Shown here: positions 58,935-64,000 of the stretch, piece by piece
How the letters are laid out: the number at the start of each line of letters is the position of its first letter
How positions within the stretch are numbered: the stretch's first letter is position 1
Assembly: GCA_963383645.1 (NCBI GenBank)
Contig: OY726565.1
Coordinates: 33,336,529-33,400,528 of the forward strand
Origin: Muscardinus avellanarius
Taxonomy: Eukaryota > Chordata > Mammalia > Rodentia > Gliridae
Length of the DNA: 64,000 bases
Direction: 5' to 3'
Notes under the pieces: generated by a model
What the model saw: only the letters and a program-made list of their open reading frames with translations
What the model was told of the DNA's origin: nothing
The model's database searches: none
Program-made: the position numbers and the translations under genes

Positions 58935-59039
58935 TGGGGTACTTTTAATGTTAAGAATCTGATTCTATTATTCATTAGTATGTAATGTGTATTGAGAGCC
59001 TTGCATGTGCCAGTCACTGTATTTGAGTCAATATAATTT

Positions 59040-59929
59040 TTTAATATTTTTATTGGTGCATTGTAATTATATATCATATTGGAATACAAGACTTGAGAGG
59101 ATATACAAGTACACATCGCCCAATTAGCCCTCATCCACTCCCCATCCCATTCCCTCCCACTCCCTCGATCCCATGCTTGATTGGTGATTATCTTTGATAC
59201 ATTTGTTTATGTACTTCCTGAGTTTTAAAGAGGTTCCATCCTCCCCATCCCATCCCCTCTGATTGGTCACCTTAATTGCTTCTCTATAGGGCCCTTTCTA
59301 CAACTCAACCTCCTCCTTTTACCCCTTTCCTCCTAGTTTTTGCTAATTAGGGGAAGCATCTGGTTTTTATTTTCTGTGATATTTCTCTGTGCATGCCACA
59401 TTGCAAGTTCCGATCTCACTCTTGATGGCCCCAGTAGTGGCCTGGCCACCCGGAGGGCTCTGATCCCGACCTCACTGGCTCCAGCACTGGCCTTGCCTCA
59501 TGGGAGGCCCTGATCCTGGCCACACTGGCCCCCACACCAGCCTAACCCCTCGGCTGGATCCGATCCCGGCCTTGGAGGCCCCAGCACCAGCCTTGCCTCA
59601 TGGCAGGCTCCAATCCCGGCCTCACTGACCCTGGCACCAGCCTAACCTCTCAGCAGGCTCCTATCCTGGCTTCTGAAGCCCCAGCACTGGCCTTGCCTCA
59701 CAACAGGCTCTGATCCTGGCCTCACTGGCCCCGGAACCGGCTTTAACCCTTGGCAGGCTCCAATCCCGGCCTCGGAGGCCCCAGCACTGGCCTTGCCTCA
59801 TGGCAGGCTCCAATCCCGGCCTTGCTGGCCCAGGCACCGGCCTAACCCATTGGCAGGCTCCAATCCTGGCCTCGGAAGCCCCAGAACCAGCCTTGCCTCA
59901 TGGCAGGCTCTGATCCCAGCCTTGGAGAC
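59040..59929 (-). mobile_element. SVA-like VNTR/L1-3'UTR composite element, copy A
   Basis: Read on the minus strand: about ten GC-rich units of about 50 bp (59929 to about 59411), a short linker (CTTGCAATGTGGCATGCAC), then L1 3'UTR from just after the ORF2 stop (AAAACCAGATGCTTCCCC, a purine tract GGGAGTGGGAGGGAATGGG) to the terminus ACAATGCACCAATAAAAAT and A-rich tail at 59040. TCAATATAATTTTT / TCAATAATTTTT flank it, a likely duplication with a 2-bp loss. The insertion lies in the left target-site duplication of the SINE at 59945. There is no open frame for a transposition protein. Confidence 0.8.
59411..59929. repeat. GC-rich minisatellite of copy A
   Basis: About ten 50-bp units of the form CAGGCTCCAATCCCGGCCTC + GGAGGCCCCAGCACTGGCCT + TGCCTCATGG, alternating with a form that ends GCCTAACCCCTCGG. 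CpG sites are frequent but many have decayed to TG/CA. Confidence 0.93.
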
Positions 59930-59944
59930 TCAATAATTTTTTTA

Positions 59945-60160
59945 TTTTTTATTTTTTGCAGGTCTGGAGATGGAACCCAGGGACGTTCTACCTCCAAGCT
60001 ACACCCCCTGCCCTATTTTTTTTTTATTCTTTATTTTTGAAACAGGGTCTCACTAAGTTGCAGAGGGCTTCACTAAGTAGCTGAGGCTGTCTGAGAACTG
60101 CGATCCTCCAGTCTCAGCCTCCTGAATACTGAGATTACAAGCATGCCCTACCACACCCAG
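59945..60160 (-). mobile_element. B1-dID SINE, antisense
   Basis: TTGCAGGTCTGGAGATGGAACC through CCTACCACACCCAG. AGTCAATATAATT lies at 60163 and at 59027, beyond VNTR copy A. So the SINE is older and the VNTR element entered its left duplication. Confidence 0.9.
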
Positions 60161-60410
60161 TAAGTCAATATAATTCTAAGACAACCTATAGATTAAGCCA
60201 CCCGTCCCAACCAGCATTGGAGTTACCCTCTTTCCCTCTTCCCAAAAATCTTGGCAACTTCTACCCTCTTGTCTTCTCCTGAGTCAGGTGCTTGAGATGC
60301 ACTATAACCAGTCTTTCAGGGTTCTGAACTATCCAACACAGGTAGGGCCCAAGGTGCAGTCCCTGCAGAAAGCATCCTTCAAAGTGACATGATCAAAAGT
60401 TGGTGCTCAG
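60161..60410. other. Unique spacer
   Basis: Nothing recognised between the SINE and the L1 5'UTR. Confidence 0.4.
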
Positions 60411-61680
60411 GACTTCCGGGAAGATGGCGACCGAGAAAAGCGGGGCTTAAGAGCCCCGCTAACAACCAATCTCCATTACCACAAAATCAGAGCCTTTCAT
60501 AGCCAGAAAACACCATCACCAGAGAAACAAAAAAATCACCAGGCTCCAGAGAGAAAGCGGACTGAGAACAGAGCTCAAAGCCACAGAGGAGATACACAGG
60601 CCTCATCCCCGAGGATGCAGCAGCAGCGCCATACTGCTGGCAGCAGCGGCGAGTTCACCGGACGGATACAGCAAGCCGAGGTGAGCCGCTACGGAAGAGC
60701 CAGGCGGGATTTCTCGGCGCAGGGAGCTTCTAAAGCTCCCAGTGGCTGAGCTCAGCACACGCTGCAGGGATTCAGAGTAGAACTCAAAACCAAGAAGAAA
60801 CACGCCAGCCTCACAGTCGAGGGAGTAGCAGCAGCGCCATATTGCCACCGGCGGCAGCAACAGCAAATTCACCGAATCCAGTACAGCTACATCTGTACTC
60901 AAGAACAGTGAGTCAAATTGCGGGCCACAGAGGAGAAATCCCAGTACTGTACTCCCTGGGACTTGACCCAGTGGGGGAGGGGCGGTGGCAGAGATATCAC
61001 ACCATAGGAGAACGTGCAACCTGGCACCCCCCACAGTCTAAAGCAGCCTCTATCGACTCTCTGGGTCGGAGACTCTGTGATACAACCCAGTAAAGGAGTA
61101 GTGGGGTCTGAGATACTACTGACTCGAGATCCAGAACACCTTAAGTGAAGTCATAGTGACCCAAGGGAAGAACCCAGAGAAGGCACAAACTTCTGAAATC
61201 ATGAGAAAGAGGAATAATACTGGAGCAATGAATGCCCACAACCCCACAACATCAGAACCTGATAAAACAGAAAATCAGAGATTTCTAGAAGATCAAATCA
61301 GGAAAATAACTGTAGAAATAATAGAGGTGCTTCGAAAAGAACTCAGAGAGAGCCAAAAAGAGATAAAGGATGCAATTAATGAAGTAAAGGCCTCAATTCA
61401 AAGCACAAACAACCGATTAGACCACATGGAGAACAGAATCTCGCTCTTAGAAGATGAGCAATCCAAAAATGAACGCATAGTTTCTAATCTAGAAAAAAAT
61501 ATCCGACAGCAGGAATCTGACATTGAAGAAATATGGGCCCATTTTAAGAGAGCTAACCTAAGAATAATTGGAATAGAGGAGGGAAAAGAAAGTGAAACCA
61601 AAGGGATCAACAATCTCTTCAAGGAAGTAATAGCAGAAAATTTTCCAAACATAGAGCAAGAGGTCGATACACATCTAGGC
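60411..61680 (+). mobile_element. L1 5'UTR and partial ORF1, third copy
   Basis: GACTTCCGGGAAGATGGCGACC at 60411 starts the best preserved 5'UTR here, then ORF1 from ATG 61201. ORF1 stops matching at EQEVDTH (about 61672), mid-gene. A roughly 130-bp unassigned stretch follows, then antisense ORF2 begins at about 61810. The 3' half of ORF1, sense ORF2 and 3'UTR are absent. Confidence 0.85.
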
Positions 61681-61701
61681 CACAGAGTTCAGAAAAAATA
61701 A
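61201..61701 (+). pseudogene. L1 ORF1, 3'-truncated but open
   Basis: Starts MRKRNNTGAMNAHNP and stays open through the coiled coil (NRLDHMENRISLLEDEQSKN) into the RNA-recognition region (ANLRIIGIEEGKESETKGIN, LFKEVIAENFPNIEQEV), with no internal stop. It then runs into foreign sequence and stops after GHRVQKK at 61701. About 166 codons against about 305 for a full ORF1. It lacks the C-terminal RNA-binding domain. Confidence 0.88.
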
Positions 61702-61809
61702 GCAAAACTAACAAAAATGGGTTAAAAATATGTCAAAAAACCCAACTAACTTGGGTTCAAGCCTTATCCTTAATCCTGTTTAAAATTATATTCCTTTGGT
61801 CTGCAGTAC
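61681..61809. other. Junction sequence, unassigned
   Basis: A-rich stretch between plus-strand ORF1 and minus-strand ORF2. Not recognised as L1 or SINE. Confidence 0.4.
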
Positions 61810-62479
61810 CATTGCATCCCTATAGGCTTCCTCTTTAGGTTCTTGATGGTTTCCTTTGATGAGAAGAAACTTTTTAGTTTGATGCTGTCCCACTTGTTAA
61901 TTCTTGTTTTTCCTGCACTTTGGAAGTCTTATTGAGAAAGTTACTGCCTGTGCCTATATGTTAGAGTGTTGGTCTTATGCCTTTCTCTAATAACTTCACA
62001 GTCTCTGGTCTAATTTCTAAGTCTTTGATCCATCTCAAGTTGATTCCTGTGCATGGTGAGAAGTTAGGATTCAGATCCAACTTTCTACAAATGGACAGCC
62101 AATTTTCCCAGCACCGTTTGTTGAAAAGGCTGTCTTTTCTCCCGCGTATGAGTTTGGCCCCTTTGTCAAAGATCAATTGACTATAGATGTGTAGGTTTGT
62201 TTCTCTATCTTCTATTCTGTTCCACCGGTCAGTCTGCCTATTGTTGTGCCAATACCATGTTGTTTTTACTGCTATTGCTCTATAGTATAATTTGAAGTCC
62301 GGGATTGTGATGCCTCCTGCCTGGTCTTGTTGCTGAGAATTGCTTTGGCTATTCTGGGTCTTTTCTTTCTCCACACAAAATTCATAACTGATTTTTCCAG
62401 GTCTATGAGAAATGTTGTTGGTATTTTAATGGGAATTGCATTGAATCTATAGATCACTTTTAGCAGTATGGCCATTTTT

Positions 62480-63853
62480 TTTATTGTATATATACATATT
62501 TTATTTTATTTTATTTTTATCATTTTTTAATTTATTTTTATTGGTGCATTGTAATCATACATCACATTGGAATACAAGACTTGAGAGGATATAAAAGCAC
62601 ACATCATCCAATTAGCCCTCATCCACTCCCCATCCCATTCCCTCCCCCTCCCTCAATCCCATGCTTGTTTGGTGTTTAACTTTGATACATATGTTTATGT
62701 ACCTCCTGCTTTTTAAAGAGGCTTTATCCTCCCTTATTTCATACCCTCTGATTGGTCACCTTAATTGCTTTACTATAGGGTCCTTTCTATAGCTTTACCA
62801 CTTCCTGTTGCCCCTTTCCTCCTAGTTATTGCTAATTAGGGGAAGCATATGGTTTTAATTTTATGCGATATTTCTCAGTGTATGCCACGTTGCAAATACC
62901 GATCCCACTCTTAACAGCCCCAGTTGTGGCCTGGCTACCCGGTGGACTGATCCAGACCTTGCTGGCTCAAGCAGTGGCCTTGCCTCGTGGGAGGCCCCGA
63001 TTCTGGTTTTGCTGGCCCCGACACTGGCCTAACCCCTCAGCTGGCTCCGATCCCGGCCTCAGAGGCCCCAGCACCGGCCTTCCTCACAGCAGGCTCCGAT
63101 GCTAGCCGATGGCCCCGGCATCGGCCTAACCCCGTGGCAGGCTCTGATCCAGGCCTCGGAGGCCTCAGTAGCAGCCTTGCTTCACAGAGGGCTCCGATGC
63201 CGGCCGCTGGCCCCGTCACTGGCCTAACCCCTCGGCAGGCTCCAATCCCGGCCTCAGAGGCCTCAGTAGCGGCCTTGCCTCACGGAAGACTCCGATGCCG
63301 GCCAGTGGCCCCAGCACCAGCCTAACCCCTCAGCAGGCTCCGATCCTGGCCTCGCTGGCCCCAGCACCGGCCTAACCCCTCGGCAGGCTCTGATCCCGAC
63401 CTCGGAGGCCCCAGCCCCGGCCTTGCCTCGCGGCAGGCTCCAATGCAGGCCACTGGTCCCAGCACCAGCCTAACCCCTCAGCAGGCTCCGATCCCGGCCT
63501 CAGAGGCCCCAGCACAGGCCTTGTCTCATGGCAGGCTCCAATGCCAGCCTCGCTAGCTCCAGCACCGGCCTAAACCCTTGGCAGGCTCCAATCCCGGCCT
63601 CGGAGGCCTCAATAGCGGCCTTGCCTCACGGAAAGCTCCGATGCCGGCTGCTGGCCCTGGCACCGGGCTAACCCCTCAGCAGGCTCTGGTCCCAACCTCG
63701 GAAGCCCCAGCACCAGCCTTGCCTCACGGCAGGCTCCAATCCCGGCCACGCTGGCCCTGGCACCGGCCTGACCCCTCGGCAGGTTCCGATCCCGGCCTTG
63801 GAGGCCCCAGCACTGGCCTTGCCTCATGGCAGGCTCCGATCCCGGCCACGCTG
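62480..63853 (-). mobile_element. SVA-like VNTR/L1-3'UTR composite element, copy B
   Basis: The 1374-bp insertion splits the L1 ORF2 between ...YYKNGHT and MAILL.... A perfect 17-bp target-site duplication GCAGTATGGCCATTTTT lies at 62463-62479 and 63854-63870. On the minus strand: about nineteen 50-bp GC-rich units (63853 to about 62900), linker (TTTGCAACGTGGCATACAC), L1 3'UTR (AAAACCATATGCTTCCCC ... GGGAGGGGGAGGGAATGGG) and terminus ACAATGCACCAATAAAAAT with a long A/T-rich tail (62480-62540). The modules and the linker junction match copy A; only the unit count differs. Confidence 0.9.
62900..63853. repeat. GC-rich minisatellite of copy B
   Basis: About nineteen units of about 50 bp. Two unit types alternate: one has GGAGGCCCCAGCACCGGCCT + TGCCTCACGG, the other GCTGGCCCCGGCACCGGCCT + AACCCCTCGG, so the higher-order period is about 100 bp. 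Many CpG sites are retained, more than in copy A. Confidence 0.95.
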
Positions 63854-64000
63854 GCAGTATGGCCATTTTTATAATATTTATTTTGCCTATCCATGAGCAA
63901 GTGAGGTCTTTCCATCTTCCAAGGTCTTCTTCAATTTCTTTCTTTAATGTTTTGTAGTTTTCTCTGTAGAGGTCTGTTACATCTTTGGTTAGGTTTATTC

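Follow-up and report, generated by a model that had tools for sequence, protein, structure and literature searches.

In the 64,000-nucleotide stretch of DNA analysed here (the window), a GC-rich tandem array is fused to the 3' end of an L1, and the fused unit lies inside the ORF2 of another L1. This arrangement raises the question of whether the unit is an unusual L1, a tandem repeat that came to lie beside an L1 end by chance, or a mobile element of its own kind. The original prediction was an SVA-like composite retrotransposon. Its observation is confirmed and its interpretation partly supported by the results presented below: with a probability of roughly 85%, the element belongs to a dispersed family of composite retrotransposons that are apparently non-coding and non-autonomous and are moved in trans by L1, and it is a copy shortened at its 5' end.

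The element in question (copy 1) is a 1,374-bp unit on the minus strand and is bounded, as predicted, by exact 17-bp duplications. The duplicated sequence, GCAGTATGGCCATTTTT, is the sole exact match of at least 10 bp between the two junction regions (62400-62519 scanned against 63800-63899). When the flanks are joined and one duplication is kept, the L1 ORF2 frame (frame 2) is open across the site, with stops further on. Tandem Repeats Finder places an array with a period of 50 at 63014-63847, in agreement with the predicted GC-rich units of about 50 bp. Six ORFs of at least 60 aa overlap copy 1, all of them wholly or mostly inside this array, and no protein-coding capacity is apparent, which is what had been proposed. 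The features of copy 1, of its insertion site and of a second copy in the window are collected in the table.

Table. Features of the two composite element copies and their surroundings (window positions)
Feature	Position	Strand	Remarks
SINE-like unit, from copy 2 5' end to its likely target duplication	59936..60167	-	Read by eye
Composite element copy 2	59031..59935	-	Also starts in VNTR; 82% identity to copy 1 (899 positions aligned)
L1 ORF2 sequence hosting copy 1	61721..64000	-	Stretch includes the element and reaches the window end
Target-site duplication, element 3' side	62463..62479	.	Exact 17-bp match, GCAGTATGGCCATTTTT
Composite element copy 1, 5'-truncated within VNTR	62480..63853	-	5' end at 63853, A-rich 3' end at 62480
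A-rich tail	62480..62530	-	Position approximate
L1 ORF2 end and L1 3'UTR, assigned to an old L1 lineage	62530..62868	-	Bounds approximate; AATAAA signal included
Linker of ~55 bp, VNTR to start of L1 homology	62869..62925	-	Bounds approximate
GC-rich VNTR, ~50-bp units	62926..63853	-	Lower bound approximate; units elsewhere in the family chiefly 50 and 48 bp, their order at the 3' end common to copies
Target-site duplication, element 5' side	63854..63870	.	Exact 17-bp match, GCAGTATGGCCATTTTT; A-rich at the start in sense orientation

A single search of the 2.5-Gb genome from which the window comes gave 40 scored dispersed places, the window copy included. Because the first look had yielded 13,794 candidates, this figure is a minimum and no copy number; the copies examined, being those that match the window copy best, form a non-random and biased selection. 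All 39 other places were retrieved with their flanks and oriented by the L1-derived part (the 3' module). In every one of these 39 copies the VNTR adjoins the 3' module on its 5' side.

The two-part layout that had been predicted, VNTR followed by an L1 3' module, holds for both of these parts but is incomplete. A common domain of ~560 bp (the 5' domain) precedes the VNTR in 30 of the 39 copies, a few of which have it cut, deleted or interrupted (L019, L032, L045 and L047), and upstream of this domain there are usually GC-rich monomers of 91 bp. At their assigned starts, 27 of the 30 copies with the 5' domain begin within these monomers; the monomer array comprises 0.7 to 8.9 units in the 24 of 30 copies where it is measurable. 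The remaining 9 of the 39 copies, together with both window copies, start in the VNTR. Because 30 of 39 copies continue upstream of the VNTR into the 5' domain, copy 1 of the window is 5'-truncated.

The VNTR itself varies from 749 to 4,553 bp, with a median of about 1,295 bp (30 copies), and its spacings in the 40-60 bp range are dominated by 50 bp (633) and 48 bp (218), with 49 bp seen 48 times (39 copies). The final 160 bp before the 3' module are similar in the 12 copies printed, and by eye the 5' end is likewise common to copies. Outside CpG, the median divergence from the majority sequence is 2.3% for the 3' module (41 copies, both window copies included) and 2.9% for the 5' domain (30 copies), as expected for a family that spread over time. 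The 63-kb and 59-kb window copies stand at 4.6% and 8.3%, respectively. The closest pairs of copies differ by 1.55% in the 3' module and by 2.9% in the 5' domain; very recent insertions are thus not seen in this sample.

GC-box and CCGGAAG motifs were counted in the monomers of four copies, and on this basis the 91-bp monomer array is likely a promoter. The positions of the 5' ends within the monomer were also compared. A first test with 20 copies found no clustering (p 0.67); with arcs of 1, 2, 3 and 7 nt, post hoc tests of 27 copies returned p values of 0.02, 0.19, 0.12 and 0.0075, respectively, a mixed outcome that is suggestive at most of a start-site signal. The 5' domain was considered as a captured gene and rejected as such: Pfam returned for four peptides a single sub-threshold CNNM match (E 0.031), Rfam gave 0 matches (L022 and L027), and three matches among PDB sequences (E 0.46 to 0.90) were treated as chance. 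In L027 (1035-1618), the 5' domain contains, by eye, two diverged copies of an ~80-bp stretch (GAATGCTACC...GACAA...), and the pair looks like an old internal duplication.

Target duplications were sought in flanks taken at the element ends, with a threshold score of 10. They are present in 26 of 40 copies, compared to 1.5% of 1,560 mismatched flank pairs scoring at least 10. Their length is 11-19 bp (median 15), and 24 of the 26 are exact, the other two having one mismatch; 14 copies fall below the threshold, L021 and L044 coming closest to it. Each copy has a different duplication apart from L009 and L017, whose duplications overlap in an A-rich sequence within SINE-like flanks and are weak as insertion evidence. 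In 21 of 26 cases the duplication has an AAA among its first 6 nt, compared to 12.5% of control positions, a contrast that the adjoining A tail inflates somewhat. Duplications, A tails and A-rich sites are what L1-type target-primed reverse transcription leaves behind. From these traces, and from the apparent lack of coding capacity, we infer that L1 proteins are the movers. The proposal of a family moved in trans therefore gains support from the 39 further dispersed copies and from the duplications that many of them carry.

From 5' to 3', the longer copies comprise the 91-bp monomers, the ~560-bp domain, the VNTR (about 0.75 to 4.6 kb in units of 48/50 bp), a linker of ~55 bp, the ORF2 end with the 3'UTR of an old L1 lineage, and an A-rich tail. 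In the proposed mechanism, RNA polymerase II would initiate in the monomers, and the transcript would terminate at the L1-derived AATAAA signal. L1 proteins, the presumed enzyme source, may then bind in trans to the transcript's 3' end, which is L1-like and A-tailed, after which an A-rich target would be nicked at a TTT/AAA-type site and the RNA copied by target-primed reverse transcription. An early stop in copying would be the probable cause of 5'-truncated copies such as copy 1, whose truncated structure is directly visible.

The 3' module aligns to the window L1 ends at 34.0 and 39.1 kb from the final ORF2 codons through the 3'UTR to the tail. The original prediction had called this part an L1 3'UTR; the 3'UTR is indeed there, but the ORF2 tail is included as well. 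In addition, the last ~150-195 bp of the module match the window ends at 9.7, 34.0 and 48.3 kb with 75-80% identity. Ten old-lineage L1 loci were taken from 40 scored (one is the window's own 39-kb L1), and all 10 match the 3' module at 66-73% identity with an identical module start position. For young L1 3' ends, seven stretches were retrieved, five of them with the ORF2 C-terminus; a recognisable ORF2 end was not found in the other two, L053 and L056. When the module was compared by BLAST with the five young ends, a single A-rich piece of 49 nt matched, in one end, and a forced local alignment to one of these young L1 ends, L054, yielded only weak and gapped similarity. Judged by these alignments, the source of the 3' module is an old L1 lineage and not the young L1s sampled.

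The alternative that survives best makes the family an internally deleted L1: an old L1 whose 5'UTR consisted of the monomers, the 5' domain and the VNTR would have lost ORF1 and most of ORF2, which would leave this 5'UTR fused to the ORF2 tail. The start of the module inside ORF2 is what such a deletion would leave. Mouse L1, moreover, has a monomeric 5'UTR, with a variable number of GC-rich monomers and copies that start inside a monomer, as here; the units described here are 91 bp, however, and no ORF1 or ORF2 follows them in the composite copies. The 5' domain, VNTR and module are without match at E 0.1 in the 5' regions of the young L1s L049, L050, L051, L069 and L071, and in the window, where an L1 5' end is present, BLAST of the 5' domain yields nothing below E 0.027. 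A tblastn comparison with 17 open frames of at least 120 aa from nine L1 loci gave only E values of 0.24 and 0.028, taken as chance. Among L1 5' ends, these comparisons covered those of the sampled young L1s and the one in the window. Overall, we regard an internal deletion as unlikely.

The VNTR might instead be a normal part of an L1 3'UTR, the copies being ordinary 5'-truncated L1s; some L1 3'UTRs do have GC-rich repeats, and the 3' module is L1. However, the 30 copies that extend beyond the VNTR pass into the 5' domain and not into ORF2, and the 10 old-lineage L1 ends match only from the ORF2 tail onward, with no VNTR match at E 0.01 in any of them. The five young L1 ends have no BLAST match even to the module, apart from the one A-rich piece. 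Within the window, L1-like 3' ends lie at about 9.7, 27.0, 34.0, 39.1 and 48.3 kb, and BLAST of the element confines the VNTR matches to 59.4-59.9 and 62.9-63.9 kb; this agrees with the claim that the other window ends have no VNTR. An L1 with the VNTR in its 3'UTR is, in our view, highly improbable and is rejected for the copies examined, as none of the L1s sampled carries it as a normal feature and a single composite-L1 junction stands apart.

At this junction (L048, one of four loci retrieved from the ORF1 search), a composite copy directly abuts a young L1, the junction falling within the ORF1 of the latter, and the 3' module of the composite breaks off there about 100 bp short. With CpG included, the composite part diverges by 8.9% from the majority, and the L1 part is 99.1% identical to another L1, L050, over 1,905 bp. 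In L072, the sequence that follows the L1 tail does not hold the missing end of the composite; the ends in L072 and L048 are assumed to belong to one L1, with ~2.7 kb between them unread. An insertion with a deletion and a template-switch chimera would both fit. A recurrent composite-L1 chimera was also considered and rejected: L071, which has the same 249-aa frame, shows an ordinary L1 5' side without a match to the VNTR, 5' domain or module, so recurrence of the L048 junction was not found in one further case. The composite copy at the L048 junction (L048 1-3294, L070 and L072; C1:6705700-6714700, partly read) has a very long and regular VNTR of more than 3.2 kb, the end of which was not reached.

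If the family is a composite in its own right, its relation to the known VNTR composites has to be considered. Two papers describe such composites as specific to hominoid primates (PMC4432496, PMC7353768); a review lists as SVA-like elements LAVA, PVA and FVA, from primates other than human, together with one human variant (PMC4982230). No rodent or squirrel counterpart was among the matches listed in the open-licence literature. Like the gibbon LAVA, the element has a central GC-rich VNTR with conserved end units, an L1 fragment at the 3' side, poly-A and flanking duplications. LAVA differs in its CT-hexamer/Alu-like 5' part and in its 3' Alu and L1ME pieces (PMC4432496, PMC7353768), whereas the element described here has 91-bp monomers and a different domain at 5', and an L1 ORF2 tail with 3'UTR at 3'. 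SVA of great apes and human has a similar VNTR unit length, with 49-bp K-type units in hominine SVA (PMC7353768). Flanking duplications are found in both. On the other hand, the 3' part is L1-derived in our element and HERV-K-derived in SVA, and the CCCTCT-type hexamers that form the CT repeat at SVA, LAVA, PVA and FVA 5' ends never occur three or more in a row in the 5' parts of the 30 copies. The hominoid composites further have an antisense Alu-like 5' domain; the 5' domain of our element gave no BLAST match below E 0.027 to the window, SINE-like repeats included. The sequence of the VNTR unit also looks different from that of the SVA unit.

Descent from a common ancestor with the hominoid composites would account for the shared order of VNTR, 3' module and poly-A, for the similar unit length and for the shared VNTR ends (PMC4432496). 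It is nonetheless very doubtful, given that 91-bp monomers and a different domain make up the 5' region of the longer copies, that runs of three or more CT hexamers are missing from the 5' parts of all 30 copies, and that PMC4432496 and PMC7353768 place SVA and LAVA in hominoids only. A dispersed minisatellite or a segmental duplication lying beside an L1 end by chance has next to no probability and is rejected for the copies examined: GC-rich minisatellites may spread inside larger duplications, but the copies have their own flanking duplications (26 of 40, two overlapping in sequence) and common internal junctions, and among 39 copies none of the 741 pairs is alike on both flanks, which means that these copies are not one segmental duplication.

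The preferred reading is a non-autonomous VNTR composite moved in trans by L1. Of the features of the hominoid composites, the element has the central VNTR of 30-50 bp GC-rich units, a separate 3' domain with a poly-A end (the L1 module and A-rich tail), and L1-type duplications at A-rich targets (26 of 40 copies); of those of an L1 derivative, it has the L1 3'UTR and ORF2 end. It is not filed as an SVA/LAVA member because its 5' part differs. The element is built like SVA and LAVA and appears to work like one, with mobilisation in trans. It probably represents an independently assembled VNTR composite family in a non-primate genome, in which mouse-L1-like promoter monomers replace the CT-hexamer/Alu part. 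If so, a GC-rich VNTR of ~50-bp units with conserved ends would be a recurrent solution for L1 copying in trans, rather than something that ape evolution produced by chance. The role of the VNTR in SVA mobilisation could then also be studied by comparison with another family, built separately, that is similar in VNTR unit length and in its shared VNTR ends but has a 5' part that looks unrelated. The element would, in addition, be a non-autonomous one apparently carrying its own monomeric promoter.

Young L1s with an intact ORF1 are common in this genome: 150 ORF1 matches were scored, most with a 329-aa open frame. Many of the 150 have the same 329-aa frame and the same score. The repeated frame points to recent L1 activity. 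For the ground squirrel, a review describes LINE/SINE quiescence (PMC5857283), so that this genome, in which intact ORF1 frames are numerous, may be that of a different species.

The second window copy was absent from the original prediction. Its likely target duplication, read by eye, is GTCAATATAATT at ~59025 and ~60169. The SINE-like unit between the 5' end of this copy and the duplication looks like a later nested insertion, joint insertion being the alternative. Finally, from 60414-61720 onward the window shows an apparent L1 5' end on the plus strand, followed by the ORF2 in opposite orientation that hosts copy 1; this arrangement is possibly a 5'-inverted L1, or two adjacent L1s.
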